In this document: piece after piece, positions 763 through 33,279 of the stretch
How the letters are laid out: each line of letters opens with the position of its first letter
How positions within the stretch are numbered: the first letter of the stretch is position 1
Assembly: GCA_902776375.1 (NCBI GenBank)
Contig: CACYPV010000015.1
Span: 439 to 51,429 of the forward strand
Origin: an uncultured Ruminococcus sp.
GTDB lineage: Bacteria; Bacillota; Clostridia; Oscillospirales; Acutalibacteraceae
Reading direction: 5' to 3'
Length of the DNA stretch: 50,991 nt
Notes under the pieces: generated by a model
Seen by the model: only the letters and a program-made list of their open reading frames with translations
The model's database searches: none
What the model was told of the DNA's origin: nothing
Translations under genes and position numbers: made by a program

Positions 763-1478
763 AGCGCGTTTATTACTACAGCGACGAGGTGAACGACGAT
801 TTCGCGTCCACCAACGGCAAGATAAACAGCGACACGGTGAACGGCGATTATCGCTACAGTCACCCGTCCGTCGGGTGGAAGATAGCTTCGTTTTTCGCTT
901 ATCGCGTTATCGCCACGCCGCTTGTATGGCTTTACACCAAGGTGTGGCTGGGCGTTAGGGTCAAGAACCGCAGGGCGCTGCGAAAGGTCAAGGGCTGCTT
1001 TGTGTATATGAACCACACGCAGAACATAGCCGACGCGTTCACCCCCACCATTTCGGCGTTCCCCAAGCGCGCCTATGTCGTTACGGGACCCGAAACGGTG
1101 TCTATCAAGGGCATACATGTGCTGGTTGCACTGCTGGGCGCTATTCCGCTGCCGTCGGCGCTGTCCGCCTACCGCAATTTTGAGCATAGGCTAAAAGAGG
1201 CTATGCAGGAAAAAGCGGCGGTGTTTATCTACCCGGAGGCGCATATCTGGCCTTACTGCAACTTTGTGCGGAGCTTTCCCGACAAGTCGTTTTCCTACCC
1301 CTGCCGCACGGGCTCGCCGGTCGTGGCGGCGGTCACGGTCTATCGTCCCGACCCCTCGCTGCCCGAAAAGCAGGCGCGCAAGAAGCTGCGCGATCAGGCT
1401 TATGAGTTTATGTCGCGCACCGCGAAGGAGAACGGCAGCTATGAGTATGTCAAGTATATAAAGGCCAGCGAGTTATAA
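759..1478 (+). CDS. PlsC-like glycerolipid acyltransferase
   Basis: 239 residues. The PlsC/AGPAT superfamily transfers an acyl chain to a glycerol-phosphate or related lipid at the membrane. Visible are a hydrophobic stretch near residues 45-65, an NHTQ block at 85-88 followed by D92 (HX5D rather than the classic HX4D), and a YPEAHIWPY block at 158-166 where family members usually have FPEGTR. This divergent form, with an N-terminal YYYSDE-NDDFA signature, is one I recall from clostridial genomes. It starts at the ATG overlapping the upstream glycosyltransferase stop. Its own stop codon (TTA TAA) lies inside a heptanucleotide repeat array, so the extreme C-terminus may have been altered by array growth. 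Confidence 0.75.
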   Translation: MKRVYYYSDEVNDDFASTNGKINSDTVNGDYRYSHPSVGWKIASFFAYRVIATPLVWLYTKVWLGVRVKNRRALRKVKGCFVYMNHTQNIADAFTPTISAFPKRAYVVTGPETVSIKGIHVLVALLGAIPLPSALSAYRNFEHRLKEAMQEKAAVFIYPEAHIWPYCNFVRSFPDKSFSYPCRTGSPVVAAVTVYRPDPSLPEKQARKKLRDQAYEFMSRTAKENGSYEYVKYIKASEL

Positions 1479-1549
1479 GTAATAAGTTATAAGTAATAAG
1501 TTATAAGTAATAAGTAATAAGTAATAAGTAATAAGTAATAAGTTATAAG
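1473..1549 (+). repeat. Heptamer tandem array, TWATAAG x11
   Basis: Eleven head-to-tail 7-bp units, either TTATAAG or TAATAAG, with no length variation. The first unit contains the last codon and stop of the acyltransferase gene. The same unit is found 32 kb away after murA. Confidence 0.95.
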
Positions 1550-1580
1550 CAGCTGTTATTATAAGTAACAAGCAACTGTC

Positions 1581-1612
1581 AGGGGTTGGGCTTTGAGCCT
1601 GCCCCTTTTTTG
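1581..1612 (+). terminator. Rho-independent terminator
   Basis: GGGG/CCCC stem (1582-1585 with 1602-1605) with an inner GGC/GCC helix, followed by six T. It closes the glycosyltransferase-acyltransferase unit. Confidence 0.7.
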
Positions 1613-1655
1613 CGCTTTTCGGGAGATAGGCGGCGCAAATTTAAGCTCATTGGTA

Positions 1656-1684
1656 TTGCACAGTTATGATAAATAGTGTATAAT
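1656..1684 (+). promoter_or_regulatory. Sigma-A-like promoter of the PH-domain gene
   Basis: TTGCAC at 1656-1661, 17-bp spacer, TATAAT at 1679-1684. The start codon is 72 bp downstream. Confidence 0.7.
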
Positions 1685-1755
1685 TGATTTACGGTATACG
1701 GAGCGCGTTTTTGCTCCGCTAATTTCAAAAAAGCGCCGCAGATCAGGAGGATATT

Positions 1756-2133
1756 ATGATCGATTTTGCAAAAGATACGGTTTTTAAGCTTAAACAGACT
1801 GATAACGCCGACGGCGAAAAAATGGTCGCTCCGCTGCTGACAGAGGGCGAGCGGGTCTTGTCGACGTACAAAGAGATGCGCGACATGGTGGTGTTCACCG
1901 ACAAGCGCGTGATCTCTGTAAATGTGCAGAAGCTCACGGGCAAGAAGAAGGATTTTACCTCGCTGCCCTATGCGAAGATATCGGTGTTCTCGGTCGAGAC
2001 CGCGGGCATGTTCGATATCGACAGCGAGCTCGACATGTGGTTCAGCGGACTGGGTCACGTGCGCTTTGAATTTACGGGGCGCAGCGATATAGCGTTCATA
2101 GGCAGGATAATCGCCGAGCACGCGCTGAGATAA
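1756..2133 (+). CDS. Bacterial PH-domain protein
   Basis: 125 residues, matching the small bacterial pleckstrin-homology family (bPH_1-like). The core reads as alternating beta strands: GERVLSTYKEMRDMVVFTDKRVISVN, then TSLPYAKISVFSVE, then LDMWFSGLGHVRFEF, and a C-terminal helix FIGRIIAEHAL. The VVFTDKRVI strand is the most typical element. Family function is poorly defined; many are stand-alone cytosolic proteins. AGGAGG at 1745-1750 supports the ATG at 1756. The next gene starts six bases after its stop, so both probably share the promoter at 1656. Confidence 0.75.
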   Translation: MIDFAKDTVFKLKQTDNADGEKMVAPLLTEGERVLSTYKEMRDMVVFTDKRVISVNVQKLTGKKKDFTSLPYAKISVFSVETAGMFDIDSELDMWFSGLGHVRFEFTGRSDIAFIGRIIAEHALR

Positions 2134-2138
2134 ACACT

Positions 2139-3503
2139 ATGGAATTTATAAAAAAGCATCGCGCAAAGCTTCCCTACGCGATATTCGCCGTGCTGGGGCT
2201 GTTCTCGCTATGCCTTGCTTTCAGCGGAGATCTGTGGTTTGACGAGGCTTATACGGTGTCGCTCATCCGTCACGACTTCGGCGAGGTCGTAGATATTTTA
2301 AAGACCGACATGCATCCGCCGCTGTACTTTTTGTCGCTAAAGCTGTTTTGCTCGGTTTTCGGCTACTCCTTAGCCGTCACCAAAATCTTTTCGGCGCTGG
2401 GGTATCTGGCGACGCTGTCGCTTGGCTTGACTATTGTCAAAAAGCATTACGGCGCGCGAAGCTCGATAGTTTATATGCTGACCGTGGGCGCGATACCCAT
2501 GGCGCTGTATTTCAGCGTTCAGCAGCGGTCGTACCAGTGGTGCATTTTCTTTGTCACGCTTTGCTTTTTAAAGGCGCTGCTGTTCCTTGAAACGCGCAAG
2601 CCTACGCACTGCGTTCTGTTCGTTATAGCGGGGCTGGGCGCCGCGTACAACCACATATACGCGCTGTTGGCGGTGGGCGTGGTGTTCGCGTTTGTCAACG
2701 TTTACGCCTTGGCAAAGGACAGAAAGCTTTTCAAGTTCGCTCTAATTTCGGACGCGGCTATGATCGCGGGCTTCTCGCCGTGGCTGATACAGCTTTTGGA
2801 TCAGACAAAAGCGGCTTCGGGCAGCTTTTGGCTTACGGGCGTCGAGCCGTTGTCGGTCATCGTGTTTGCTTCGGGGCTTGCTTTTTCGGCGCTTATCCTC
2901 GCAAAAAAAGAAAACCGCAGGCCGGCTGTGGTCTTCGCGATCGTTTGCGTATTGAGCGTTCAGGCGATAGGGTTGTTCGTCACGGTGTTCATCCGCCCGT
3001 TTTACATTGCGCGCTACTGCGTTGTGACGCTCGGCGTTTTCGCCCTGCTTATCGCGTTCGGCGTGCGTGACGTTAAAAAAGGACTGAAAAAATTCGTCCT
3101 GATTTTGCTGTGCGTACTGAATGTCGCCTGCTTTGCGGTCACCGCGACCTTTGAGTACAGCGCCTCGATGAGCAGTTTTTTCGACCGCCTCGACAAAAGG
3201 CTCGGCGCGAACGACACCTTTGTGTACTGCGACAGCAGCTTTGGGATAATGTCGTATTACTATCCCGAACACGAGCACATCTGCACCTACAACGAGGCGT
3301 GGTTTGCGGCTTTTGACAACGTTGAGTGTATAGAGAAGGACGAGGTGGGCGAGAAGGTCGGTTTCGGCGACCCCGTCTGGCTTGTGAAAAACGCGCAGAC
3401 AAGGCTCCCCGACTATATCAAAAGCAGCTTCACGGCTGAGAAGGTCGATAGCTTTAGGTGCGATTTCAATTATTTTGAGCTGTATTCACTAAGTAAAAGA
3501 TAA
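2139..3503 (+). CDS. GT39/PMT-like membrane glycosyltransferase
   Basis: 454 residues with roughly ten hydrophobic segments and a short soluble C-terminus. The first periplasmic loop carries the hallmark of polyprenyl-phosphate-sugar-dependent GT-C enzymes: D35-E36 in the WFDEAY block and HPPLYF at about 59-64. Such enzymes move a sugar from a lipid-phosphate carrier to a protein or lipid outside the membrane. Residues after about 340 form the soluble tail. It follows the PH-domain gene by five bases. Acceptor unknown. Confidence 0.75.
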   Translation: MEFIKKHRAKLPYAIFAVLGLFSLCLAFSGDLWFDEAYTVSLIRHDFGEVVDILKTDMHPPLYFLSLKLFCSVFGYSLAVTKIFSALGYLATLSLGLTIVKKHYGARSSIVYMLTVGAIPMALYFSVQQRSYQWCIFFVTLCFLKALLFLETRKPTHCVLFVIAGLGAAYNHIYALLAVGVVFAFVNVYALAKDRKLFKFALISDAAMIAGFSPWLIQLLDQTKAASGSFWLTGVEPLSVIVFASGLAFSALILAKKENRRPAVVFAIVCVLSVQAIGLFVTVFIRPFYIARYCVVTLGVFALLIAFGVRDVKKGLKKFVLILLCVLNVACFAVTATFEYSASMSSFFDRLDKRLGANDTFVYCDSSFGIMSYYYPEHEHICTYNEAWFAAFDNVECIEKDEVGEKVGFGDPVWLVKNAQTRLPDYIKSSFTAEKVDSFRCDFNYFELYSLSKR

Positions 3504-3518
3504 TATACGGCATGTAAT

Positions 3519-3547
3519 AAGGGGCTTCCGCTTGGAAACCCCTTTGT
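3519..3547. terminator. Bidirectional terminator between convergent genes
   Basis: AAGGGG...CCCCTT stem with inner TTCC/GGAA; T-rich on the plus side and A-rich before it, so it can serve both converging genes. Confidence 0.7.
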
Positions 3548-3549
3548 TA

Positions 3550-4467
3550 TTATTTTAAATCCTTTGTTTCAAAACTGAACGCGGTCGACGCGGAGTATTC
3601 GCCCGCTGAGCCGTTGCTTTCGCCGTCCTCACCCATGCAGTAAAGCAAAACAGTGCAATCTACCGTTTGGCTTTGCTTGGGCAGGCTGTAGTAAAATAAG
3701 GCGGTCATGGTTTCGCCCGCGCCCAAAGTTATGTTTCCGTCGTCGTCTTGCTTTTTGTCTGTCTGAGAAAACAGGTAGTTATCATAATCAAACGCGGAAT
3801 CGACCATATTCAGCAGCGGGAACATATACATCTGCTTGGTATCCGTCGTGTTTTTTACGGTGACCGTTAAAGCCGCAGGCTGTTTATTGCTGTCAGAAAG
3901 CGGAAAGTCGTAAAGGTTTACGCCGGCAAGGCTTATTTCGCCGCTATCAAAGCTGAATGTCTCTCCTGTTTTGTGCACCGCGCTGTCGTTATATACCTTT
4001 GGCACCTTATAATCGCTGCCGTCAAGCAGCTGATCCAAGCCTTCGGCGGCGTGGGTGGGCAGTTCGCTTTCGTCTTGGGCGAAATCCTCAAGGTCTATTG
4101 CCGCGCCGCTGAGAAAATCGCGGCTTTCGTCCAACGCTTTTGTAGCTTTAGAGTAGTACTTGCGCTCAAGGCTGAACGAAAGTATTTGAAAAACAACGCC
4201 GGTTACGAGCGCAGCCGCTATCACCGCAAGCAAGCATAATGCCGCGATCTTTAGCCCTTTGCCGCTTTTGGCGGGAGCGGGCTCTTTTTTCGCTTTGGAG
4301 GTATCGCCTGTGTTGTGTATGGGCGCTTCGGCAAACGCCGGGTTTTCGGCGGCGGGCTCGGGAGCCGCGTAGTAGGGCATGGGCTGCTCAGCCGGATACG
4401 CCGGGACTCCGCAGATGGGGCATACCGCCTCGTTGTCATATGTAAATCCGCAGTTGCTGCATTTCAT
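3550..4467 (-). CDS. Zinc-ribbon membrane protein, function unknown
   Basis: 305 residues from the ATG at 4467-4465; a GTG nine bases earlier (4476) would overlap the GAGGTGG ribosome site at 4479-4473, so ATG is preferred. The N-terminus is a zinc ribbon (C3-x2-C6 ... C16-x2-C19), then a Pro/Ala/Glu linker, one membrane helix near residues 72-98, and an extracytoplasmic domain rich in beta strands that looks like the DUF4352/DUF5067-type immunoglobulin-like folds (LTVTVKNTTDTKQMYMFPLL). Clostridia have many proteins of this plan. No partner is visible; transcribed alone, divergent from phoH. Confidence 0.65.
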   Translation of the reverse strand: MKCSNCGFTYDNEAVCPICGVPAYPAEQPMPYYAAPEPAAENPAFAEAPIHNTGDTSKAKKEPAPAKSGKGLKIAALCLLAVIAAALVTGVVFQILSFSLERKYYSKATKALDESRDFLSGAAIDLEDFAQDESELPTHAAEGLDQLLDGSDYKVPKVYNDSAVHKTGETFSFDSGEISLAGVNLYDFPLSDSNKQPAALTVTVKNTTDTKQMYMFPLLNMVDSAFDYDNYLFSQTDKKQDDDGNITLGAGETMTALFYYSLPKQSQTVDCTVLLYCMGEDGESNGSAGEYSASTAFSFETKDLK

Positions 4468-4479
4468 TATTACCACCTC

Positions 4480-4735
4480 AAAAATATAATATCACACACT
4501 TATAACAAAGTCAACGCCCGTTATTGCCGCATGGCGCGTGCCGGGCGAGCGTTGCCGACAGGCGGCGGAGATGTTCATTCTTGCCCGAAGTATTCATTTT
4601 TTTGCTAATAAAACATTTTGGAATGGCAACAAACACAAATGAACACAAAAAGATGACCCTGAAATTGTGCGTTTATACAAAAATGTGAAAATCTTACAGT
4701 TTTTTCAAATTTCATAACAAATTATGGTTTAAATG
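4480..4735. other. Divergent intergenic region
   Basis: About 290 bases between the zinc-ribbon gene and phoH. The half next to phoH is AT-rich and ends in the phoH promoter. I see no gene, strong hairpin or riboswitch. Confidence 0.6.
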
Positions 4736-4744
4736 TGCTACAAT
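4736..4744 (+). promoter_or_regulatory. Extended -10 promoter of phoH
   Basis: TGCTACAAT (TG-N-TACAAT) at 4736-4744 with no good -35. Transcription would begin near 4751, only about 9 bases before the first usable in-frame ATG. Confidence 0.55.
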
Positions 4745-4759
4745 TATATACGTATAAAA

Positions 4760-5743
4760 ATGCACCGTAAGGAGTTATGCGCAACGGAACACATCATCAA
4801 CATTGACAGAATGGAAAACGCTGTGGCGCTGTTCGGCAGCTTTGACAGCAACATAAAGCTTATTGAGCGCGAATTCGGCGTTAAGATAACCTGCCGCGGC
4901 AGCGAGCTGAAAATCGAGGGCGACGCGGAGCTTTCGGCAAAGGCGACGACCGTTATCGAGAGCCTGCTGCAGTTTTTGAGCAGGGGCGAGGCGCTCAGCG
5001 AGCAGAACGTGCGATACTGCATTTCGCTTGTGAACGCCGGCAGCGAGGAGAAGATAGAGGAGCTTGCGGGCGACTGCATTTGCATAACCTCGAAGGGCAA
5101 GCCGATAAAGCCCAAGACGATAGGGCAGAAGCGCTACTGCAACCTTATCGCTAAGAACACCATAACCATAGGCGTGGGTCCCGCCGGTACGGGCAAGACT
5201 TACCTTGCCGTAGCTATGGCGGTAACAGCCTTTCGCAGCAAGCAGGTCAACCGTATAATCCTCACGCGTCCGGCGGTCGAGGCGGGCGAGAAGCTCGGCT
5301 TCCTCCCGGGCGATCTGCAAAGCAAGGTCGACCCGTATCTGCGCCCTCTGTACGACGCGCTGTTTGACATGCTGGGCGCCGAGACCTACCAAAAATACGT
5401 TGAGCGCGGCAATATCGAGGTCGCTCCGCTGGCGTACATGCGCGGAAGAACGCTCGACGACAGCTTCATCATCCTCGACGAGGCTCAGAATACCACGCGC
5501 GAGCAGATGAAGATGTTCCTGACGCGCCTGGGCTTCAACTCCAAAATGGTCATCACGGGTGACATCACGCAGATAGACCTGCCCAACGGCGCGAGAAGCG
5601 GACTTAAAGACTGCATGAAGATACTGAGGAACATCGACGGCATAGGGCAGTGCACCTTTGACGAAAAGGACGTTGTGCGCCACCGCTTGGTGCAGGACAT
5701 CATAAAAGCATACGCGAAGCTTGACCAAAGCTCAAAACGATAA
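4760..5743 (+). CDS. phoH: PhoH-family ATPase
   Basis: PhoH-like P-loop NTPase/putative RNA helicase, with N-terminal KH-like segment (FGVKITCRGSELKIEG), Walker A G140PAGTGKT, and Walker B IILDEAQN. About 327 residues from ATG 4760. In clostridia it sits with ybeY and acts in RNA metabolism by association. The start is unclear: the clear Shine-Dalgarno AAGGAG (4769-4774) lies inside this reading frame, the ATG two bases after it (4777) is out of frame and gives only nine codons, and homologs as I recall begin near T-E-H-I-I-N-I (codon ACG at 4784). First gene of a run continuing to era. Confidence 0.9.
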   Translation: MHRKELCATEHIINIDRMENAVALFGSFDSNIKLIEREFGVKITCRGSELKIEGDAELSAKATTVIESLLQFLSRGEALSEQNVRYCISLVNAGSEEKIEELAGDCICITSKGKPIKPKTIGQKRYCNLIAKNTITIGVGPAGTGKTYLAVAMAVTAFRSKQVNRIILTRPAVEAGEKLGFLPGDLQSKVDPYLRPLYDALFDMLGAETYQKYVERGNIEVAPLAYMRGRTLDDSFIILDEAQNTTREQMKMFLTRLGFNSKMVITGDITQIDLPNGARSGLKDCMKILRNIDGIGQCTFDEKDVVRHRLVQDIIKAYAKLDQSSKR

Positions 5744-5786
5744 ATAATCGACCTATAGATATACAATTACTGAAAAGGGTGGTAAC

Positions 5787-6290
5787 ATGGCAGACAAAAT
5801 CAGAGTAGTAATCACAAACAAGCAGAAAACCGTTAAGATCCCCACGGGCATACGCATGCTGGTTCGCCGCTGCTGCAACGCTGTTTTGCAGCTCGAAAAA
5901 TTTGAGGGACCGGCTGAGATCAGCGTTACCTTCACCGACAACGAGGGTATCCGCGAGCTCAACAAGCAGTATCGCGACAAGGACATCGAAACCGACGTTC
6001 TGTCCTTCCCGATGGGTGAAAACGGCGTTTACGACATCGATATGGAGACCGGCGCGAAAATCTTGGGCGACGTTGTTATCTCCGTAGAGAAGGCGCGCGA
6101 TCAGGCTCAGGTCTACGGTCACAGCTTCCAGCGCGAGATCGGTTATCTGACCGCGCACAGCGTGCTGCACCTGCTGGGCTACGATCATGTTGAAAAGCTT
6201 GAAAAGGTGAGAATGAGAGAAAAAGAGGAGCTTGTTATGGAACAGCTCGGTCTGCCCGCATCCTCAAGCTATATCGTTGACAAGGTATGA
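5787..6290 (+). CDS. ybeY: Endoribonuclease YbeY
   Basis: 167 residues. The zinc site HSVLHLLGYDH (H124, H128, H134) is diagnostic. YbeY is a single-strand endoribonuclease for 16S rRNA 3' maturation and ribosome quality control. The family core (DIETDVLSFPMGE) is present. AAGGGTGG before the ATG at 5787. Follows phoH by 43 bases, as in most Firmicutes. Confidence 0.95.
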   Translation: MADKIRVVITNKQKTVKIPTGIRMLVRRCCNAVLQLEKFEGPAEISVTFTDNEGIRELNKQYRDKDIETDVLSFPMGENGVYDIDMETGAKILGDVVISVEKARDQAQVYGHSFQREIGYLTAHSVLHLLGYDHVEKLEKVRMREKEELVMEQLGLPASSSYIVDKV

Positions 6291-6299
6291 TAAAGGTCA

Positions 6300-6764
6300 A
6301 TGAAAAAACAGCTTAAAAGCTTTGGGCATGCATTTTACGGCATTTACGGCGCGCTGAAAACCGAGGCGCACCTGCGCTTTCATTTGGTCGCGGCGGTGTT
6401 CGTGCTGATATTCGCGGGTATCTGCGGCTTTTCGGCGGAGCGCTTTGCGATACTGTTCGTGCTTATCGGCGCGGTATTGGCGCTTGAGCTCGTGAATACC
6501 GCCATAGAGCATGCCTGCAATTCGGTGACAAGGAAGTATAACGCTCAAATAAAGCTCGCAAAGGATCTGGCGGCTGCGGCGGTGCTGGTTATGGCTGCGG
6601 CGGCGGTGGCGGTGGCTGCGGTGTTTTTCATTAACGCCGAGGCATGGAATGCCCTGTGCTCCTTCTTTGCGAAATACCCGCTTGCAAGCGTGCCGCTCGG
6701 ACTGCTTGCGACGGCCTCGGTTTTGTTCGTTATGCTTTTCGGAAAAGGAAAGAAGAAAGTATAA
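6300..6764 (+). CDS. dgkA: Diacylglycerol/undecaprenol kinase
   Basis: 154 residues. Small integral membrane kinase of the DgkA family. The conserved E-x2-NTAIE block (ALELVNTAIEHACNSV) and the KLAKDLAAAAVL helix are visible, with three to four membrane helices. In Gram-positives the member at this locus generally phosphorylates undecaprenol. The C-terminus (residues 115-154) is an extra hydrophobic hairpin beyond the usual ~120-130 residues. Ten bases after ybeY; a terminator follows. Confidence 0.9.
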   Translation: MKKQLKSFGHAFYGIYGALKTEAHLRFHLVAAVFVLIFAGICGFSAERFAILFVLIGAVLALELVNTAIEHACNSVTRKYNAQIKLAKDLAAAAVLVMAAAAVAVAAVFFINAEAWNALCSFFAKYPLASVPLGLLATASVLFVMLFGKGKKKV

Positions 6765-6767
6765 GAT

Positions 6768-6800
6768 AAAGAGGACGGCATATTCTTACGTCCTCTTTTT
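6768..6800 (+). terminator. Terminator between dgkA and era
   Basis: AAAGAGGACG (6768-6777) pairs with CGTCCTCTTT (6789-6798) ahead of a T run. It implies that era is at least partly uncoupled from the ybeY-dgkA message, although no clear promoter separates them. Confidence 0.75.
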
Positions 6801-6816
6801 ATCGGGAGATAAATAT

Positions 6817-7725
6817 ATGGATCAAAATGATAAATCCGCTTTTGTAGCCATCGTAGGCAGACCCAACGTGGGCAAAAGCTCAATACTCAACCGCCTGCTC
6901 GGACAGAAGATAGCCATAGTTTCGTCAAAGCCTCAGACAACGCGCAACCGCATAACGGGCGTGCTGACCGAGGGGGAGTACCAGCTGGTGTTCTTCGACA
7001 CCCCGGGCATGCACAAGCCGAAAAACACCCTCGGAAAGTACATGGTGCGCTCCGTCAACGAGAGCGTGGGCGGCGTGGACTGCTGTATGCTGGTGGTCGA
7101 GGCGGGCAGAGAGCCCGGGCAGACCGAGCTGAACCTCATCGAAAAGTTCAAGGCGCTCGATATGCCCGCGATACTGGCGATAAACAAGATCGACATGCTA
7201 AAGGAAAAGGACGAGCTGATGAAGCAGATACTCGCCTACTCGCAGCTTTATAACTTCGAGGCGGTCGTGCCCGTGAGCGCGCAGGACGGCAGCGGCATGA
7301 ACGAGCTGCTCGACGAGCTCAAAAAGCAGGCGGGCGAGGGCGGCCACTTTTTTGACGAGGACACCCTTACCGACCAGCCGGAGCGCGTTATCGTCGCTGA
7401 GATAATCCGCGAAAAGATCTTGCGCCTGACCGACAGGGAGATACCCCACGGCACCGCCGTGCTGATAGAAAAGATGAAGACGCGCGACAACGGAATACTC
7501 GATATCGACGCCACTATCTTTTGCGAGCGCGAAACGCACAAGCGCATTTTGATAGGCAAAAACGGCGAAATGCTGAAAAAGATCAGCACCTACGCGCGGC
7601 AGGATATAGAGCGCTTTTTCGACTGCAAGGTCTTTTTGCAGACGTGGATAAAGGTCAAAGAGGACTGGCGCAACCGCGCGCAGCTCGTGCAGAATTTCGG
7701 CTACGACGAGAGAAACTTTGATTAA
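6817..7725 (+). CDS. era: GTPase Era
   Basis: 302 residues, starting at ATG 6817 behind GGGAG. Era binds GTP and the 3' end of 16S rRNA during 30S assembly. G1 loop G14RPNVGKS, G3 D61TPGMHKPK, G4 NKID at 123-126 and a C-terminal KH domain (about 225-290, IGKNGEMLKKISTYARQDIE). An upstream in-frame extension to 6649 lies inside dgkA and is not coding. The stop at 7723-7725 is followed after three bases by a heptamer repeat element. Confidence 0.97.
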   Translation: MDQNDKSAFVAIVGRPNVGKSSILNRLLGQKIAIVSSKPQTTRNRITGVLTEGEYQLVFFDTPGMHKPKNTLGKYMVRSVNESVGGVDCCMLVVEAGREPGQTELNLIEKFKALDMPAILAINKIDMLKEKDELMKQILAYSQLYNFEAVVPVSAQDGSGMNELLDELKKQAGEGGHFFDEDTLTDQPERVIVAEIIREKILRLTDREIPHGTAVLIEKMKTRDNGILDIDATIFCERETHKRILIGKNGEMLKKISTYARQDIERFFDCKVFLQTWIKVKEDWRNRAQLVQNFGYDERNFD

Positions 7726-7728
7726 TGG

Positions 7729-7909
7729 AGAATTGACAATGGACAGTGGACGTTTGCCAATGGACAATTGAAAATTGACAATTGACAATTAATGGTGGGC
7801 TCCGCCCACACCTGATTTATATTAATACAGATTGACAAAAACGCGCGGCATTATAAATCGGAGCGAAGCGACCCTTAATTGTCCACTGTCCATTGTCCAC
7901 TGTCAACTG
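7729..7909. repeat. Composite repeat: heptamer arrays flanking a hairpin core
   Basis: Left part: 7-bp units of GACAATT/GACAATG/GACAGTG type (7729-7790, with one interruption). Core: GTGGGC-tcc-GCCCAC hairpin near 7795-7809 and a GGAGCGAAGCGACCC tract at 7860-7874. Right part: GTCCACT, GTCCATT, GTCCACT, GTCAACT (7880-7907), the reverse complement of the left units, so the element has heptamer-built inverted ends. No coding capacity. Related copies at 13223-13383 and 18502-18600. Confidence 0.85.
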
Positions 7910-7981
7910 ATCATGTCCGTCAATTATTTCCATCAATAATAACACCGCGTTATGGCAACACTACCTTTCGGAGGTGTTGTT

Positions 7982-8155
7982 ATGGACGAGATCGACCGTT
8001 GGCGGTTTTTCCTGAATTCGGGCAGCGTGATCGACTACCTCGCCTTTAAGCGGGCGCAGGAGATGGAGGACACGGGCGCCGATACCGTCAAAGTGGAGGA
8101 AACCGATGAAATTCCGCACAGAGGGCTTGATAATAAAGGAACAGAATATCGGTGA
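7982..8155 (+). CDS. yqzL: YqzL-like small protein
   Basis: 57 residues, start ATG 7982 behind GGAGGTG (7970-7976); an in-frame ATG 30 bases earlier has no ribosome site. The segment WRFFLNSGSVIDYLAFKRAQ matches the short YqzL family, which sits between era and recO in Bacillus and clostridia; function unknown. The reading frame runs 50 bases into recO, giving this copy a longer, probably unconstrained tail. Confidence 0.65.
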   Translation: MDEIDRWRFFLNSGSVIDYLAFKRAQEMEDTGADTVKVEETDEIPHRGLDNKGTEYR

Positions 8156-8849: not shown

Positions 8850-8856
8850 AAATATA

Positions 8857-9090
8857 GTTGAGAGTTAAGAGTTAAGAGTAAAGAGTTGAGTGGCTAGAAG
8901 CTAGATGCTAGAAGCTAGATGCTAGAGGCTAGATGAATCAGCAGAAACGTTGATTGTATTACGTAGGGGCGCACCCATGTGTGCGCCCGCAGAATAATGC
9001 GACGTTTTCGGGCGGACACACGGGTCCGCCCCTACACCAACCCCAAATCCCTACCCACTAATACCTGATACCTGATACCTAATACCTAAC
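8857..9090. repeat. Composite repeat: two heptamer arrays around a GC-rich inverted repeat
   Basis: 8857-8891: five units of GTTRAGA type. 8892-8933: six units NGCTAGA in direct continuation and in the same 7-bp register. 8963-9035: inverted repeat with ~26-bp arms (GTAGGGGCGcACCC... against ...GGGTcCGCCCCTAC) differing at about three positions. 9056-9090: five units ACCTGAT/ACCTAAT. The last unit abuts the mutS2 ribosome site. No gene in this 250-base gap. Confidence 0.9.
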
Positions 9091-9101
9091 AAGGAAAGCA
9101 T

Positions 9102-13216: not shown

Positions 13217-13222
13217 TAAATG

Positions 13223-13383
13223 GACAATTGACAATGGACAATCTACAGTGAAGGCCCGTAGCCGGGCGGCAACCCTTTTGTCGCTCCGCGACATTTCCCC
13301 TGTCAGGGGAATTTCACTTCGCTCCGAGTATAAATCGGGTGCGGGTGCCCCGCCCTCAATTGTCAACTTTCAACTTTCAACTT
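13223..13383. repeat. Composite repeat: heptamer ends around a multi-hairpin core
   Basis: Left end GACAATT, GACAATG, GACAATC (13223-13243); right end TCAATTG then TCAACTT x3 (13356-13383), partly complementary. The core holds several perfect small hairpins: GCCCG/CGGGC, GTCG/CGAC, TTCCCC/GGGGAA, GGGTG...CGCCC. The right end abuts the uvrC ribosome site. Confidence 0.85.
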
Positions 13384-13401
13384 TACAAAGGTGGTGACGG
13401 T

Positions 13402-17058: not shown

Positions 17059-18498
17059 ATGGCTGACAATAAAAAAATGGTCGAGGCTATCACCGGCCGC
17101 GACGTTGATTTTGCAAAATGGTACACCGATATCGTCAAAAAGGCGGAGCTCGTTGATTATTCGGGCGTAAAGGGCTGCATGGTCATCCGCCCCTACGGCT
17201 ACGCGATCTGGGAGCTTATCCAGCAGGATATGGACAGACGCTTTAAGGAGACGGGTCACGAGAACGTATACATGCCCATGTTCATTCCCGAGAGCCTTTT
17301 GCAGAAGGAGAAGGATCACGTCGAGGGCTTCGCGCCCGAGTGCGCGTGGGTCACTATCGGCGGTCAGGAAAAGCTCACCGAGCGCCTCGCCGTTCGCCCC
17401 ACCTCCGAAACGCTTTTTTGCGAGCACTATAAAAAGGTCATCAACACCTACCGCGACCTGCCCAAGCTCTACAATCAGTGGTGCAGCGTCGTAAGATGGG
17501 AAAAGACCACCCGCCCCTTCCTGCGCACCTCCGAGTTCCTCTGGCAGGAGGGTCACACCATGCACGCCACCGCAGAGGAGGCGCAGGAGGAAACCCTGCG
17601 CATGCTCAACGTTTATAATGATTTTTACAAGGAGACCCTCGCTATCCCCGCGGTCATCGGTCAGAAAACCGAGAAGGAGAAATTCGCGGGCGCCGAGGCG
17701 ACCTACACCATAGAGCCGATGATGCACAACGGCGTCGCGCTTCAGGGCGGCACCTCGCACTACTTCGGCGACGGCTTTGCCAAGAGCTTCGGTATAACCT
17801 ATGCCGGCAAGGACAACAAGCTGCACTTCCCGCACCAGACCTCATGGGGCACCTCAACAAGAATGATCGGCGCGCTCATCATGGTTCACAGCGACGACGA
17901 CGGACTTGTTCTGCCCCCGAAGATCGCGCCTATACAGATCGCTATCATCCCCGTCGCGCAGCACAAGGAAGGCGTGCTTGAAAAGGCGAACGAGCTTAAA
18001 GCTGAGCTTCAAAAGACCTACCGCGTGAAGCTTGACGATTCCGATCACGCTCCCGGCTGGAAGTTCGCTGAGTACGAGATGAAGGGCGTGCCCGTGCGCG
18101 TCGAGATAGGCCCCAAGGATATCGAAAAGGGTCAGTGCGTCGTGGTCCGCCGCGACACCAGAGAAAAGGCGTTCGTGCCTCTCGACAGCCTCGGCGATTT
18201 CATCGCGGAGCTCATGGTCAAGATACACGACGATATGTACGACCGCGCGCTTAAAAATACTATCGAAAAGACCTTCACGGCTGCAAGCCACGAGGAATTT
18301 TTGGATATCGCCGCCAACAAGCCCGGCTTTATCAAGGCTATGTGGTGCGGCGACAGCGCCTGCGAGGATCAGCTCAAGGACGAGACCGGCGGTGTGAAGA
18401 GCCGCTGCATCCCCTTTGAGGAGGAGCACATTTCAGACGTATGCGTGTGCTGCGGCAAGCCCGCCAAGCATATGGTTTACTGGGGAAAGCAGTACTAA
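17059..18498 (+). CDS. proS: Prolyl-tRNA synthetase (archaeal/eukaryotic type)
   Basis: 479 residues from ATG 17059 behind GGAGGAG. Class II core with RPTSET motif 2 region, then anticodon-binding domain (about 270-375) and the C-terminal zinc-like domain (CGDSACEDQ...CVCCGK) ending in a terminal tyrosine, features of the ProS3 type. It lacks the INS editing insert of the bacterial type. This type occurs in a subset of Firmicutes. Transcribed alone, under a putative operator. Confidence 0.95.
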
Positions 18499-18501
18499 AG
18501 A

Positions 18502-18600
18502 ATAATGAATGATGAATAATCAATAGTGAATAATGAAGGGTGGGCTTCGCCCACACCCGATTTGTATTCGGAGCGGAGCGACCCTTGATTGTCAATTGCC
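18502..18600. repeat. Heptamer array plus hairpin core between proS and metA
   Basis: Five units ATAATGA/ATGATGA/ATAATCA/ATAGTGA (18502-18536), then hairpin GGGTGGGC-ttc-GCCCACACC (18538-18556), then GGAGCGGAGCGACCC and a single GATTGTCAATTG end. Same plan as 7729-7909 with one array largely missing. No riboswitch is visible in this gap. Confidence 0.85.
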
Positions 18601-23127: not shown

Positions 23128-23225
23128 AGGGTTTTTGCGGTGCCGGGGGCATTTGACTCAGGAACTGTAAGGCCATTGAATTTGGAATAAAGAAATAAAA
23201 AAATCAAAAAAATTACAATAAAGCC

Positions 23226-28017: not shown

Positions 28018-28089
28018 AAGCCCGGTAACGGACGGCTTACGGAAAACTTTGAGAGATCATTTATGAGATAAATTGAAAGGAAGATAAAA

Positions 28090-29148
28090 ATGGTTGTTTA
28101 CGGCATATGGACATTTTGCGCGGCGATCATCGCATTCATCATCTCGGCTTTGGTGGGAAGGGTTTTGATACCGTATCTTCACAAGCTGAATTTCGGGCAG
28201 ACTATTCTTGACATAGGTCCGAGCTGGCACAAGGAAAAGCAGGGCACTCCCGTTATGGGCGGCATTATGTTTATTGTCGCCATCACCATTGTTACCGTTA
28301 TCAGCACTGTGCTCTACATGTTTATAGGCGAGCATGTGCTCGGCTCGTTCATTTTGGATATGAACAAAGAGGTCATCCGCATCTTTGCGGGACTCGGTCT
28401 GGCGCTTGCGAACGGTATCATCGGCTTTGTGGACGACTACACCAAGGTCGTCAAAAAGCGCAACCTCGGTCTTACCGCCGTTCAAAAGCTTATCTTCCAG
28501 TTTGCGGCGGCAGGCGCGTATCTTGCGGTGCTCGGTTTTTCGGGCTGCGGAAGCGAGATGTACATTCCCTTTGTTGACCATCCGGTCGACCTCGGCGTGT
28601 TCTATTACATCATTTCCGCTATAGTTATCGTCGGCGTGGTTAACGCTGTAAACCTCACCGACGGCGTCGACGGTCTTGACGGTTCCATCACCTTCTTTGT
28701 AGCCGTTACATTCATGCTTATTTCCAGCGCGCTTTACCGTTTGGGAATCACCGCGTTCAGCGCGGCAGCGGCGGGCGCATGCCTCGGATTTTTGGTTTGG
28801 AACTTCCATCCCGCAAAGGTGTTCATGGGCGACACGGGTTCGCTTTTCCTCGGCGGCTTGGTGTGCGCTTTGGCGTTTTCGATCAAAATGCCCATACTGC
28901 TTTTGCCTATGGGTATCGTGTATCTTTGCGAGATGTTCTCGGTCATCCTTCAGGTCGGCTACTTCAAGCTCACGCACGGCAAGCGACTTTTCAAGATGAG
29001 CCCTATCCACCATCACTTTGAGATGAGCGGTTGGAGCGAAGTTAAGATCGTGTGCGTGTTCAGCATGGTCACGGCTTTGTTTGGCATTATTTCGTTCCTG
29101 CTTGTGAACTTCGGCGTTATCCGCTTCATACCGGGGCCGATTTATTGA
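28090..29148 (+). CDS. mraY: Phospho-MurNAc-pentapeptide transferase
   Basis: 352 residues, about ten membrane helices. Makes lipid I from UDP-MurNAc-pentapeptide and undecaprenyl phosphate. Conserved loops GPSWHKEKQGTPVMGG, FVDDYTKV, NLTDGVDGLDG, FHPAKVFMGDTGSLFLGG and the HHHFE loop (SPIHHHFEMSGW) are all intact. AAAGGAAG before ATG. Confidence 0.97.
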   Translation: MVVYGIWTFCAAIIAFIISALVGRVLIPYLHKLNFGQTILDIGPSWHKEKQGTPVMGGIMFIVAITIVTVISTVLYMFIGEHVLGSFILDMNKEVIRIFAGLGLALANGIIGFVDDYTKVVKKRNLGLTAVQKLIFQFAAAGAYLAVLGFSGCGSEMYIPFVDHPVDLGVFYYIISAIVIVGVVNAVNLTDGVDGLDGSITFFVAVTFMLISSALYRLGITAFSAAAAGACLGFLVWNFHPAKVFMGDTGSLFLGGLVCALAFSIKMPILLLPMGIVYLCEMFSVILQVGYFKLTHGKRLFKMSPIHHHFEMSGWSEVKIVCVFSMVTALFGIISFLLVNFGVIRFIPGPIY

Positions 29149-29190
29149 TCAACGGATCATACTCATAACTTCCAAAAGGGGGTTGCCGTA

Positions 29191-30441
29191 TTGGCTCCTA
29201 ATCAAAAAATGATCCTTCGTGCGGACGTCAACCGCGTTTACGACGAGAAGTACCGCACGCAGGAGGAAAAAGAGAAGTTCTTTATCCGCGGCAAGCGCAA
29301 GCCGAAAAACGGCAAGTGGTTTTCGGTCGGGTTGGGAATAGACCTCCCGTTTTGCCTGCTGATCCTGATATTGCTCGTCATAGGAACGATAATGATGTTC
29401 TCGGCGAGCTACGCGTTCTCATACTACACGGTGGGCGACAGCTACTTTTACCTAAAGCGGCAGATCCTGTTTATCGTGTTGGGTATCGCAGCTATGGCTG
29501 TGATGTCGTTTTTCAACTACAACAAGCTGCACAAGATCGCTCCCTTCGTTCTGGGCGCGGCGTACTTTGCGCTGCTGCTGGTGCTTATCCTGCCATCTGC
29601 GGAGGGCGGCGTAAGGCGCTGGATACCTCTGGGCATATTCAATATCCAGCCGTCCGAGATAGCAAAGCTCGCGGTTATATTGTTTTTCGCGCACTGGGCG
29701 AGCAAGTATTATAAGCTTATGCAGCTTCCTAAGTACAGCATCCTGCCGGGCATTGTAGTGTTCGGCTCCATTTCGGTGCTGCTGCTGCTTGAGCCGCACT
29801 ATTCGGGTATCGTCATCATCGGCGTGCTGACGGTCATAATGCTGTATATAGGCGGAATGAAAGCTAAATATCTTATAATCGGCGGCATCATTTTCGCGGG
29901 TATAATCCTGCTGCTGGCGGTCACGGGCGGACTTTCCTACGCCATGAGCCGTATGGACGGTTGGGGACAGGCGCTGTCCGCCGAGCGCGGCACCGAGCTC
30001 TGGGATCAGACCTGGCAGACGCGCAACTCGCTTTACGCTATCGGCTCCGGCGGTCTGTGGGGTTTGGGACTCGGTCAGTCAAGGCAAAAATTCCTGTACC
30101 TGCCCGAGCCGCAGAACGACTTTATCTTCGCTATCGTCGTCGAGGAGCTGGGTCTTATCGGCGCGGCTATCATCCTGCTTATCTTCGCTCTGCTGGTATG
30201 GCGCGGCATAACGCTCTCGCTCAGGGCAAAGGATCGCTTCGGAAAGCTGCTGGGTATAGGACTTACCTCACAGATAGGCGTTCAGGTCGTTTTCAACATT
30301 CTGGTTATCACCGACTGGCTGCCAAACACCGGTATCAGTTTGCCGTTTTTCAGCTACGGCGGCTCGTCGCTTATAATGCTGCTTGCGCAGATGGGCATAG
30401 TGCTGTCTGTGTCGCGAACGGCAAATATAGAAAAACTGTAA
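29191..30441 (+). CDS. SEDS peptidoglycan polymerase (FtsW/SpoVE)
   Basis: 416 residues, TTG start behind GGGGG. About ten membrane helices. SEDS marks: a basic N-terminal tail, the periplasmic GGVRRWIPLGIFNIQPSEIAKLA block, and LPFFSYGGSS near the end. It polymerises lipid II with the class B PBP encoded just upstream. Vegetative FtsW and sporulation SpoVE cannot be separated by eye. Confidence 0.93.
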   Translation: MAPNQKMILRADVNRVYDEKYRTQEEKEKFFIRGKRKPKNGKWFSVGLGIDLPFCLLILILLVIGTIMMFSASYAFSYYTVGDSYFYLKRQILFIVLGIAAMAVMSFFNYNKLHKIAPFVLGAAYFALLLVLILPSAEGGVRRWIPLGIFNIQPSEIAKLAVILFFAHWASKYYKLMQLPKYSILPGIVVFGSISVLLLLEPHYSGIVIIGVLTVIMLYIGGMKAKYLIIGGIIFAGIILLLAVTGGLSYAMSRMDGWGQALSAERGTELWDQTWQTRNSLYAIGSGGLWGLGLGQSRQKFLYLPEPQNDFIFAIVVEELGLIGAAIILLIFALLVWRGITLSLRAKDRFGKLLGIGLTSQIGVQVVFNILVITDWLPNTGISLPFFSYGGSSLIMLLAQMGIVLSVSRTANIEKL

Positions 30442-30466
30442 CCGGTTGCCACCGGAGGGCGAAGCC

Positions 30467-30501
30467 CTTAACTTAACTCTCAACTCTCAACTTTTAACTC
30501 T
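30467..30501 (+). repeat. Heptamer array YAACTYT x5
   Basis: CTTAACT, TAACTCT, CAACTCT, CAACTTT, TAACTCT, ending seven bases before the murG ribosome site; preceded by small hairpins CCGG-ttgcca-CCGG and GGGC-gaa-GCCC. Confidence 0.9.
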
Positions 30502-30518
30502 AAAGATAGGTGCATGTT

Positions 30519-31637
30519 ATGAAAATTTTACTTGCGGGCGGCGGTACAGCCGGACACATCAACCCCGCTTTGGCTATAGCGGGCTATATCAAGAAAAGAC
30601 GTCCCGATACTCAATTTCTGTTTATCGGCAACAAGGACGGCATGGAGCAAAGGCTGGTTCCGCAGGCGGGATTTGAGATAAAATCTATCACAATAAGCGG
30701 CTTTCAGCGCAGCCTTTCGCCGAAGAGCATGCTGGCGAACGCAAAGACCGTAGGACGCACCTTTTCTTCGTCTGCCGCGGCAAAGAAGATAATAAAGGAG
30801 TTCAAGCCGGATATTTGCATCGGCACGGGCGGATATGTATCAGGCCCCGTCGTGCGCGAGGCGGCTAAGCTCGGCATCCCCTGCATAATCCACGAACAGA
30901 ACGCCTATCCCGGCGTTACCAATAAAATGCTTGCAAAGCGCGTAAAAAAGGTCATGCTCGCCGTTGAGGCGGCAAAGCCTTACTTCAAGGACGCGCCGAT
31001 CGTCGTGACGGGAAATCCCGTGCGCGGAGAGATACTCACCGCAGACAAGGCGGAGTCGAGGAAGAAGCTTGGGCTCGATCAGCGCCCCGTAATTCTCTCC
31101 TTCGGCGGAAGCCTGGGCGCGCAGAAGATAAACGAGGCGCTCACGGATATACTCGTGCGCAGCGGCAAGGACGGCAGATATCAGCATATACATGCCTACG
31201 GCAAGTACGGCGGCTGGCTGCCCGACGCTATCAAGGAAAAGGGCGTAGTTATCGAGGACTGCAAAAACCTTGATATCCGCCCCTACATCGACAATATGCC
31301 AGAGTGCATGGCAGCTGCCGATCTGGTGATCTGCCGCGCGGGCGCGATCACCCTCAGCGAGGTGCAGGCAATGGGCAAGCCCGCGATCCTGATACCCTCG
31401 CCGAACGTGGCTGAGAATCACCAGTATCATAATGCGATGGCGCTTGTGAACGCGGGCGCCGCGGAGATAATAGAGGAGAGCGATTTGAGCGGCGAGGCGG
31501 TCATCGAAAAAGCCGACTCTATGCTGCAAAGCGCCGAAACACTCGCGAAATTCAGCGAAAACTCCAAAAAAATGGCGATCACCAACGCAAATGAGCGCAT
31601 TTATGCCGTTGTAAAACAGGTGCTTCATTTGTTATAA
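30519..31637 (+). CDS. murG: Lipid II synthase MurG
   Basis: 372 residues from ATG 30519 (GTG 30510 is an alternative). Adds GlcNAc to lipid I at the inner membrane face. N-terminal GGGTAGHINPALA and C-terminal donor site AGAITLSEVQAMGKPAILIPSP are intact. Follows ftsW after a 77-base gap containing the heptamer array. Confidence 0.97.
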   Translation: MKILLAGGGTAGHINPALAIAGYIKKRRPDTQFLFIGNKDGMEQRLVPQAGFEIKSITISGFQRSLSPKSMLANAKTVGRTFSSSAAAKKIIKEFKPDICIGTGGYVSGPVVREAAKLGIPCIIHEQNAYPGVTNKMLAKRVKKVMLAVEAAKPYFKDAPIVVTGNPVRGEILTADKAESRKKLGLDQRPVILSFGGSLGAQKINEALTDILVRSGKDGRYQHIHAYGKYGGWLPDAIKEKGVVIEDCKNLDIRPYIDNMPECMAAADLVICRAGAITLSEVQAMGKPAILIPSPNVAENHQYHNAMALVNAGAAEIIEESDLSGEAVIEKADSMLQSAETLAKFSENSKKMAITNANERIYAVVKQVLHLL

Positions 31638-31968
31638 TATATCCAAGCATGTATTTTAGTGCGCCTTTGGATAGAGCGCCTTTTCGGAGGCACCGACATA
31701 ACGGCGCGTCAAAACTCAGTGCACCGACTGAAAGGGCTATTCATTTAAAAACGCCGGATTTATAATCGACCTATCTCGCGTAAACGTGCATTTACCGATA
31801 AACAAAAGTTTAAGTCCGCGTACTGCCCTCCCGTGGCAACGGGCGCGTAAACGTGCATTTACCGATAAACGAAAGATTTAGTCCGCGTACTGCCCTCCCG
31901 TGGCAACGGGGGCACAGAATATCATCTTCTACATAGAATAAACTATGATTCTATAAGAGGGTGTTTGT
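31638..31968. other. Structured 331-base gap between murG and murA
   Basis: No gene. Contains a perfect-length tandem duplication (next entry), several small hairpins, and TAGAAT/ATTCTA inverted arms (31934-31939 and 31948-31953) just before the murA ribosome site. No terminator with a clear T run and no convincing promoter were found. Confidence 0.6.
31777..31910. repeat. 67-bp tandem duplication
   Basis: Units 31777-31843 and 31844-31910 differ at only about four positions. Each unit can form GTAAA/TTTAC and CCCGT-ggca-ACGGG hairpins, so it reads as a two-copy structured module. Confidence 0.9.
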
Positions 31969-33222
31969 GTGTCAAAGCTGTATATTACAGGACGTAAGCG
32001 GCTGAACGGTGCGGTCAAGGTTCAGGGCGCGAAAAACAGCGCTTTGCCAATACTTGCGGCGACGGCGCTTTGCAAGGGCGAAAGTGTTATTTACAACTGC
32101 CCCGTGCTTTCGGATACCGAGGCGTCGCTTATGACCCTGCGCTATCTGGGGTGCAGGGCGGAGCGAAGCGGAAACACTGTTATAGTCCGTAACGACGGAC
32201 TGAAACGCAGCGACATCCCCGACTCGCTGATGCGCAAAACACGCGGCTCGGTCGTGTTCCTCGGCGCGGTATTGGCGGCTGAGGGAAAAGCGAAGATTTG
32301 TCTGCCGGGCGGCTGCGATATCGGGATACGTCCCATCGACATGCACATAAAAGCGCTGAGGAAGCTCGGCGCGGTCATTAAAGAGCGGCGCGGATGTCTT
32401 GACTGCCGCGTGCCTCACGGCTTAAAGGGCTGCGAGATCGCTCTGCCGTTTCCCAGCGTCGGCGCTACCGAGGACATCATGCTCGCGGCGTGCACGGCGG
32501 ACGGCACAACAACGATAACGAACGCAGCCAGAGAGCCCGAGATCGGCGACCTCGCGGATTTCCTGAACCGCTGCGGTGCGCAGATCAGCGGAGCGGGCGA
32601 GGGCACTGTGATCATCGACGGCGTAAAAGAATTGAAAGGCTGCGCTCACGCGGTGATCCCCGACAGGATCGTTGCGGCTACGCTTATTTCGTGCGCCGCC
32701 GTGACGGGCGGAGATATCACGCTAAAGGGCGTTATCCACAGCCATCTCGGCGCGGTGATTTCCGTGTTCGAGGACGCCGGCTGTGCTTTTAAAGCCGACG
32801 GGAACGAGCTTAGGATCAAGGCTCCCGAGCGGCTTGAACCGATGAAGCTTATAAGAACAATGCCGTATCCCGGATTTCCGACCGACGCGCAGGCGCCTGT
32901 GCTTGCGGCGGCAGCGGTCGCCGACGGAACCACGGTGTTTATTGAAAATATATTTGAAAACCGTTACCGTCACGCCGCCGAGTTGGCGCGGATGGGAGCG
33001 GATATACGAACCGAGGGCAAGCTCGCGGTGGTCGAGGGCGTACCGCGATTATACGGCGTGGCGGTCGAAGCGACCGACCTGCGCGGAGCGGCGGCGCTCG
33101 TCGCGGCGGGACTTTGCTGCGAGGGCAAAACCGAGATAAGCGGCGTGAAGTATCTTGAACGCGGCTACGAAGATTTTGAGCAAAAGCTTGCGGCGCTTGG
33201 TGCGGAGATAGTTAAGTTATAA
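31969..33222 (+). CDS. murA: UDP-GlcNAc 1-carboxyvinyltransferase
   Basis: 417 residues, GTG start behind AGAGGG. First committed step of peptidoglycan precursor synthesis. N-terminal KVQGAKNSALPILAA, catalytic loop LPGGCDIGIRPID with C116 (fosfomycin-sensitive type) and FPTDAQAP near the middle. Full length. Its last codon and stop (TTA TAA) lie within a heptamer array. Confidence 0.96.
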   Translation: MSKLYITGRKRLNGAVKVQGAKNSALPILAATALCKGESVIYNCPVLSDTEASLMTLRYLGCRAERSGNTVIVRNDGLKRSDIPDSLMRKTRGSVVFLGAVLAAEGKAKICLPGGCDIGIRPIDMHIKALRKLGAVIKERRGCLDCRVPHGLKGCEIALPFPSVGATEDIMLAACTADGTTTITNAAREPEIGDLADFLNRCGAQISGAGEGTVIIDGVKELKGCAHAVIPDRIVAATLISCAAVTGGDITLKGVIHSHLGAVISVFEDAGCAFKADGNELRIKAPERLEPMKLIRTMPYPGFPTDAQAPVLAAAAVADGTTVFIENIFENRYRHAAELARMGADIRTEGKLAVVEGVPRLYGVAVEATDLRGAAALVAAGLCCEGKTEISGVKYLERGYEDFEQKLAALGAEIVKL

Positions 33223-33279
33223 GTAATAAGTTATAAGTAATAAGTAATAAGTTATAAGTAATAAGTAATAAGTAATAAG
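33217..33279 (+). repeat. Heptamer tandem array, TWATAAG x9
   Basis: Nine exact-length TTATAAG/TAATAAG units, the same family as 1473-1549, beginning inside the last murA codons. Confidence 0.95.

Follow-up and report, generated by a model that had tools for sequence, protein, structure and literature searches.

Polar heptanucleotide arrays at gene borders in an uncultured Ruminococcus genome

Why should tandem arrays of different sequence in the spacers of one bacterial genome share a unit of seven nucleotides, and how did they come to lie there? The question is raised by a stretch of 50,991 nt from an uncultured Ruminococcus sp. (bases 439-51429 of contig 15, hereafter the window), in which an earlier note had listed 11 such arrays. 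The interpretation given there, a common mechanism that fixes the period and leaves the sequence free, is partly supported by our analysis. In this genome the arrays tend to be placed where a gene meets the remainder of a lengthened gap, and in most of them the purine- or G-rich strand runs inward from the gene. We give roughly even chances to the reading that they are polar terminal tracts at the ends of recently gained intergenic inserts, which would have arisen by a process linked to DNA ends and have been altered by slippage afterwards.

Period and polarity of the intergenic arrays

The draft genome consists of 2,635,318 bases in 76 contigs, from which we sampled 40 stretches of at most 20 kb each, amounting with the window to 847 kb. 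A simple hexamer model called 754 genes in this sample (coding fraction 0.88). Twenty of the 40 stretches had mostly been picked around array hits and the other 20 had not; all counts of polarity and units draw on the entire 847 kb, the biased half included. Arrays were counted with Tandem Repeats Finder (TRF) at a minimum of 2.5 copies and a score of at least 40. A period-7 array was placed at each of the 11 positions in the window, with concurring sequences. The lone window intergenic array of another period to reach the threshold had a period of 8 (23186-23213, score 40). Across the sample, period 7 accounted for 161 of 173 intergenic arrays and for 25 of 29 in the stretches not picked around hits, which bears out the predicted sharp intergenic peak. 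Among coding arrays it was found in 6 of 45, and 37 of the remaining 39 had periods that are multiples of three. When all periods were treated alike in a scan of 443 intergenic sequences (91.8 kb), 147 arrays were detected at period 7, 121 at period 14 and one to three at every other period from 3 to 15. Ten shuffles gave a mean of 4.2 arrays at period 7, probably an overestimate because failed shuffles returned the original sequence, and about one at most other periods. Tandem 7-nt arrays beyond chance and mostly in spacers are the mark of heptanucleotide long simple sequence repeats (LSSRs), and the arrays here show it. Both the TRF counts and the scan support a fixed period, many unit families and a common mechanism.

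The sequence is less free than had been proposed. Many families do occur, but 167 arrays collapse to 36 canonical units, a few families dominate, and in several of them variation lies mostly at one position. Nor are the units in the window all unrelated: AGTNATA is shared by the arrays at 1471 and 33213, an AATKGAC-type unit by those at 7724, 7878 (reversed) and 13219, and AGTTRAR by those at 8856, 13363 and 30475 (Table 1). An unbroken register at 8891/8892 could not be demonstrated, with 3 of 7 positions matching across the junction by eye. Called intergenic in the earlier note, the arrays at 1471 and 33213 start inside the final codons of the upstream open reading frame (ORF).

The arrays have a direction relative to the gap in which they lie. 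With the side of an array defined by the nearer flanking gene, unit orientation learned from other gaps predicted the side of 139 of 157 arrays; in 200 permutations the mean fraction was 0.49 and the largest 0.64. Without any use of families, purines outnumbered pyrimidines on the strand reading from gene to gap in 150 of 177 arrays. The purine-rich strand pointed inward rather than outward by 93 to 17 at gene 3' ends (93/110) and by 57 to 10 at gene 5' ends (57/67); between divergent genes it did so in 8 of 12 cases, a small number. Polarity is equal at both kinds of gene end and therefore independent of the direction of transcription, and selection by gene direction is unlikely. Outer arrays lay close to genes, at medians of 15 and 16 bp in gaps with at least two arrays.

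Adjacent arrays 15-600 bp apart (n=52) were convergent in 43, direct in 8 and divergent in 1 case when oriented by purine skew, and convergent in 36, direct in 9, divergent in 2 and undetermined in 5 when oriented by G-C skew. Pairs with the same unit, or with units one mismatch apart, were inverted in 11 cases and direct in none. Family orientations set post hoc enter the counts of family order, same-family outer pairs and single arrays, and play no part in the learned-orientation, adjacent-pair and gene-end tests. With orientations assigned in this way, all 16 single arrays hugging one gene obeyed the polarity; by reading, all 11 window arrays were oriented as expected for their own family. 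The units at the left and right ends of a gap are nearly independent: in 9 of 38 pairs the two outermost arrays shared a family, with 6.0 expected by permutation (P 0.12).

Other regularities were considered and rejected. AGT was only mildly enriched among distinct units, so no universal consensus is claimed. AGT-bearing pairs were convergent in 25, divergent in 1 and direct in 9 cases, counted over this genome and over non-cyanobacterial and cyanobacterial loci that had been fetched with an AGT pattern. TGGCTAG precedes TTATAAG in 6 of 6 cases; apart from this combination, cases were too few for a fixed order of families. A stop-codon function was discarded, AGTTATC providing stops on the other strand only (by eye).

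The polarity rule is strong in this genome and partial elsewhere. A scan of GTDB contigs with four AGTWATM units gave at least 80 loci; by record titles, 63 of the matches listed were cyanobacterial and 17 were from other groups. The latter included, among the matches listed, Bacteroidota (Flavobacteriaceae, Prevotellaceae, Chitinophagaceae, Marinifilum, Arcicella), Planctomycetota, Verrucomicrobia, Poribacteria, Bryobacteraceae, Nitrospirota, Xanthobacteraceae, Parabeggiatoa and Clostridia. The comparison with cyanobacteria drawn in the earlier note was apt, such arrays being present there as well as in other groups. A reversed control pattern had 0 or 1 occurrences in ten non-cyanobacterial array genomes and was common in an Anabaena genome. 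In stretches around hits, period 7 led in genomes of Clostridia (G030, 22 of 31 TRF arrays), Arcicella (G031, 21 of 26), Prevotellaceae (G029, 29 of 40) and Chitinophagaceae (G038, 10 of 13). Adjacent pairs oriented by G-C skew were all convergent in the Clostridia (6/6) and Chitinophagaceae (4/4) genomes; Arcicella had 2 convergent and no divergent pairs (n=8), and the Prevotellaceae genome had 2 convergent, no divergent and 3 direct ones (n=11).

Variation within units and between genomes

Arrays were grouped by consensus in two ways, and all their full units were counted. The first grouping demanded that the array consensus match at six positions and exempted the seventh, which favours variation at the seventh. 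It gave non-majority fractions at the variable position of 0.61 for GCTAGA[A/T/G] (57 arrays, 260 units; 0.02-0.09 elsewhere), 0.49 for AGT[T/A]ATA (29 arrays, 154 units; others at most 0.04), 0.48 for AGTTGA[A/G] (18 arrays, 62 units; at most 0.10), 0.44 for GTGG[C/T]TA (8 arrays, 32 units; at most 0.09), 0.29 for GGTA[T/C]TA (27 arrays, 133 units; at most 0.14) and 0.28 for AAT[T/G]GAC (12 arrays, 39 units; at most 0.21). The second, fairer grouping permitted one mismatch at any position and comprised five families. The contrast was kept in GCTAGA (0.62 versus at most 0.09 elsewhere), AGTNATA (0.51 versus at most 0.09) and AGTTGAR (0.45 versus at most 0.16). In three of five families, one position holds most of the variation. 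Mutation plus slippage should spread variants across all seven positions; the clear families instead vary mainly at one. Single variable positions were also found in other genomes, in AAACCAT of Prevotellaceae (0.47), AACTTAT of Chitinophagaceae (0.44) and ACACCCC of Microcystis (0.45).

Along the arrays, neighbouring GCTAGA units were alike at the variable position in a fraction of 0.44 versus 0.45 after shuffling, which corresponds to random order. The values were 0.60 versus 0.63 for GGTATTA and 0.60 versus 0.60 for AATTGAC. Neighbours were alike less often than shuffled in AGTNATA (0.30 versus 0.47), where T and A tend to alternate, and more often in AGTTGAR (0.73 versus 0.67). Sharing of variable-letter strings between arrays had a P of 0.36 for GCTAGA strings of length 5 and 0.066 for GGTATTA. 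The concentration of variants at one position within single arrays was set aside, as duplicated variants can produce it, and a permissive unit count was dropped because it mixed families.

For comparison with sister species, mainly G013 and one contig of G006, 91 orthologous gaps were paired. Fourteen of them carry arrays in our genome, and 13 of these 14 are without arrays in the compared sister locus; arrays on the sister side only were found in 2 of the 91. The array-bearing gaps have a median length of 131.5 bp here versus 43.5 bp in the sister, the 77 other gaps 14 versus 22 bp. As judged from these gaps, the arrays are recent in this genome. The recO-mutS2 gap measures 252 bp and holds three arrays and a core resembling a REPIN, that is, a pair of repetitive extragenic palindromic (REP) sequences. 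Its counterpart has about 12 bp in G006 (L010), the locus counted in the above comparison, and about 33 bp in G013 (L011/L080), where it holds a short CTGACTA array. The core at 7791..7877 was not observed in the corresponding gap of L080, a sister locus.

Change on a shorter time scale was followed in Microcystis lineages that are about 94-98% alike. One spacer with two arrays, in which indels below 14 nt were left uncounted, differed by nine indels of 14, 14, 14, 21, 21, 42 and 36, 43, 50 nt. Six of the nine are multiples of 7, and those of 36, 43 and 50 nt contain an 8-nt variant. Four other arrays differed in length by 7, 14, 21 and 70 nt; further spacers showed differences of 1 or 6 nt or replacement of whole blocks. 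Whole-unit change thus occurs, at least in Microcystis.

Two further observations were made in Microcystis. One spacer (L306 8510-8622 and orthologues) measures 132, 385 or 712 bp depending on the allele; the flanks are the same, the unit families and interiors differ. An element of about 129 bp that resembles a miniature inverted-repeat transposable element (MITE; L107 ~2296-2424) has many matching places, and sister locus L325 offers an almost clean empty site.

GTAG is a mark of REP sequences. The core at 8963-9035 and similar places in the sampled genome contain GTAG-hairpin pairs and in this respect resemble REPINs, a likeness that covers the core only and not the arrays. Recurrent junctions of REPIN-like cores include GTCGGTGTAGGGGCG and CGTTTCTGCTAA. 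The core end CGTTTCTGCT, found at 16 places, joins mostly GCTAGA-type arrays and also others. Other recurrent GC-rich cores are GTCATCCTGAGCGG... and GGTGGGC..GCCCACACC...GGAGCGAAGCGACCC. The cores of several short pairs look unrelated by eye.

Origin of the arrays

The reading to which we give even chances supposes that an insert junction was once a DNA end, either a break or an integration intermediate. A process linked to such ends would make or place heptamers of fixed polarity at each end of the insertion, adding single 7-nt units in succession, each drawn from a limited set of specified units. Later on, arrays would grow and shrink through slippage or unequal recombination, gaining or losing whole units. 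The interior, be it REP/REPIN-like palindromes, hairpins or unique filler, would be cargo. Insertion of cargo into the middle of an existing array is unlikely, as it would leave direct flanking arrays.

A number of results weigh against this reading. Single arrays that do not hug one gene agree with the polarity in 18 of 27 cases. By purine skew, pairs were convergent, divergent and direct in 1, 4 and 6 cases in the Prevotellaceae genome, 2, 2 and 4 in Arcicella, 5, 4 and 5 in non-cyanobacterial 8-kb loci and 23, 12 and 60 in cyanobacterial 8-kb loci. A dinucleotide score trained on this genome gave 49, 14 and 73 elsewhere, and same-unit pairs in cyanobacteria were direct in 15 and inverted in 6 cases. 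In the fairer grouping, the contrast was moderate in GGTAYTA (0.24 versus at most 0.12) and AATTGAC was without a single variable position (0.21, next 0.19); the AGTTATC family hardly varies in Microcystis, and in other genomes there are families with two variable positions. GCTAGA variable-letter strings of length 4 were shared 64 times versus 52.2 after shuffling (P 0.044), and those of AGTNATA clearly above shuffled (0 of 500 shuffles reached the value). Such sharing, slight in GCTAGA and GGTATTA and clear in AGTNATA, may stem from copying of a master array. Sister species are too diverged to provide, for this genome, a base-resolution empty site at which a target-site duplication would show. 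As to machinery, the Y1 transposase (PF01797) had no match in the 98.9% complete draft and matches in 5 of 14 control genomes. RVT_1 matches were confined to two fragments at contig ends, no model specific for defence-associated (DRT) or telomerase (TERT) reverse transcriptases having been run, and heptamer arrays (20 TRF rows) occur in the sister genome G013 without any RVT_1 match.

One of the two reverse transcriptase fragments (L213 1-847, at a contig end) appears group II intron-like by eye, and the other lies at G000:C25. Possibly, they belong to a multi-copy intron that breaks the assembly.

Ordinary replication slippage offers a simpler account, in which chance two-unit duplications expand because the polymerase favours 7-nt slips, and the products persist as junk under weak selection. 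The multiples of 7 among the Microcystis indels, the length differences of the four other Microcystis arrays, the near confinement of arrays to spacers and the dominance of heptamers in many bacteria (PMC4679880, PMC4692102, as far as their available text goes) all accord with it. Since it predicts neither the inward polarity nor the small set of units nor the one-position variation in three of five families, we regard slippage alone as possible but rather unlikely. Of the slippage suggested in the earlier note, whole-unit changes are seen in Microcystis, and they do not give the polarity. Alternatively, the arrays might be the terminal inverted repeats of non-autonomous MITE- or REPIN-like elements mobilized by a transposase in trans. 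Convergent ends, the exclusively inverted same-unit pairs, the recurrent core junctions and the short gaps in sister species fit this proposal. A plain terminal inverted repeat, however, would put one family at both ends; the ends here are inverted as in MITEs, but are of the same family in just 9 of 38 pairs. Moreover, the core end CGTTTCTGCT is not restricted to GCTAGA-type arrays, several short pairs have unrelated-looking cores, and Y1_Tnp, the one transposase family searched, was without a match. Taken together, this makes mobile elements of that kind an unlikely source.

Arrays of selected protein-binding sites, in which six letters are read and the seventh is free, would owe their polarity to a function at gene borders. 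This would suit the six conserved and one variable positions of several families and the short distance of outer arrays from genes. It would require a separate binder for each of many families; in addition, the variable position is not free to hold any of the four letters, and 13 of 14 compared sister gaps lack arrays. We therefore hold it to be very improbable. In telomeres the G-rich strand points toward the DNA end, an orientation that the inward polarity of the arrays would match if an insert junction was once a DNA end. A telomere-like addition in bacteria is conceivable, by which templated 7-nt units would be added to both 3' ends of broken or integrating DNA before joining. A putative enzyme would read one template position loosely. 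If true, conservation across phyla would extend to the 7-nt step but not to the template sequence. Plasmodium telomeres carry a degenerate heptamer, GGGTTYA, at chromosome ends and not in spacers (PMC7365481), and DRT10 systems synthesize templated tandem repeats of fixed length, 9 nt in Eco3 and other lengths among systems, as cDNA, unlike the spacer arrays here (PMC12632851; both in their available portions). The analogy with telomeres and DRT10 is attractive, but no enzyme supports it, and we consider end addition in this form improbable.

Heptamer tandem repeats are a known kind of sequence, and those of cyanobacteria bear the name short tandemly repeated repetitive (STRR) sequences. The period itself is not new, because heptamer dominance in bacteria has been published: in most or many genomes heptanucleotides are over-represented, or no other long simple repeat is as common, which was attributed to polymerase slippage tied to the length touching the enzyme (Mrazek 2007, as cited in PMC4679880 and PMC4692102; these papers, and those named below, were available in part). 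These LSSRs resemble our arrays in their dominant 7-nt period and proposed slippage origin; the available parts of the two citing papers say nothing of a polarity relative to inserts or of a single variable position. GGGAATC-type arrays of Xanthomonas and GGGGA(C/T)T arrays of Nostoc are likewise heptameric, mostly intergenic and degenerate at some positions, and their lengths vary between related strains; 70 and 75 close convergent pairs are reported from Xanthomonas, as here, and few paired repeats from Nostoc (PMC4692102). Their units are of the G-quadruplex type and one family per genome is treated, whereas many AT-richer families share the polarity here. The TAACTGA repeats of Beggiatoaceae, cyanobacteria and Bacteroidetes are of the same unit type (AGTTATC when read from the opposite strand), and between close Cyanothece strains their indels come mostly in steps of 7 nt (PMC4679880). 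In the main genome of that study they lie mostly just 5' of start codons and were read as translational signals, while our arrays occur at both 5' and 3' gene ends. The elements of Geobacter metallireducens are also tandem heptamers at many places, but have a fixed four or five copies of one GC-rich consensus, GGACCGG, and occur inside genes as well (PMC2700814). As here, the STRR sequences are tandem heptamers; three heptamers of Calothrix are cited in PMC4692102.

Apart from the Xanthomonas pairs, we found no description of the polarity, the near-independent ends or the one-position variation in the open literature searched. The published accounts, in their available text, leave unexplained why bacterial spacers favour exactly seven letters. 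Border polarity, near-independent ends and one-position variation are testable constraints beyond a bare slippage model, and point to a process acting on DNA ends that is possibly common to several phyla.

Features of the window

The arrays sit among ordinary genes, whose names were assigned from Pfam matches. Their neighbours encode domains of Era, RecO, MutS2, UvrC and ProRS as well as FtsW/RodA, MurG, MurA, FtsQ and FtsZ. The window had no Rfam match at gathering thresholds. Coordinates are compiled in Table 1.

Table 1. Heptamer arrays and associated cores in the window
Position	Strand	Feature	Context
1471..1549	+	AGT[T/A]ATA array, 11 units	left side, inward-facing; begins in last codons of ORF 759-1478
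7724..7790	+	AATKGAC-type array	left member of convergent pair; after era-like GTPase ORF (MMR_HSR1 + KH_2)
7791..7877	.	core between convergent pair	GC-rich palindromes by eye (GTGGGCTCCGCCCAC ... GGAGCGAAGCGACC)
7878..7909	-	GTCCACT array, AATKGAC family reversed	right member of pair; TRF periods 7 and 14
8856..8887	+	AGTTAAG array	left, outer; after recO
8893..8935	+	GCTAGA[A/T/G] array	left, inner; adjoins AGTTAAG array 8856..8887
8963..9035	.	REPIN-like core, GTAG-hairpin ... hairpin-CTAC	similar GTGTAGGGGCG places in sampled genome
9058..9089	-	CTAATAC/CTGATAC array (reverse of GGTAYTA)	right member; before mutS2
13219..13242	+	AATGGAC/AATTGAC array	left member; directly 3' of terminator-like hairpin (by eye)
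13363..13384	-	TCAACTT array	right member; before uvrC
18496..18537	+	TAATGAA array	left; after proS
30475..30501	-	AACTCTC array	right side; between ftsW/rodA-type ORF and murG
33213..33280	+	AGT[T/A]ATA array	left side; 3' end of murA-like ORF (EPSP_synthase family)

After the array at 18496..18537 come a GC palindrome and, in reverse, about 1.5 units of GTCAATT (by eye). Two repeats of other kinds were seen in the window. A 67-bp direct duplication in two copies lies upstream of the murA-like ORF (31777-31910), and 45-bp repeats are located within the ftsQ-type ORF 33363-34844, near its 3' end (34579-34812).

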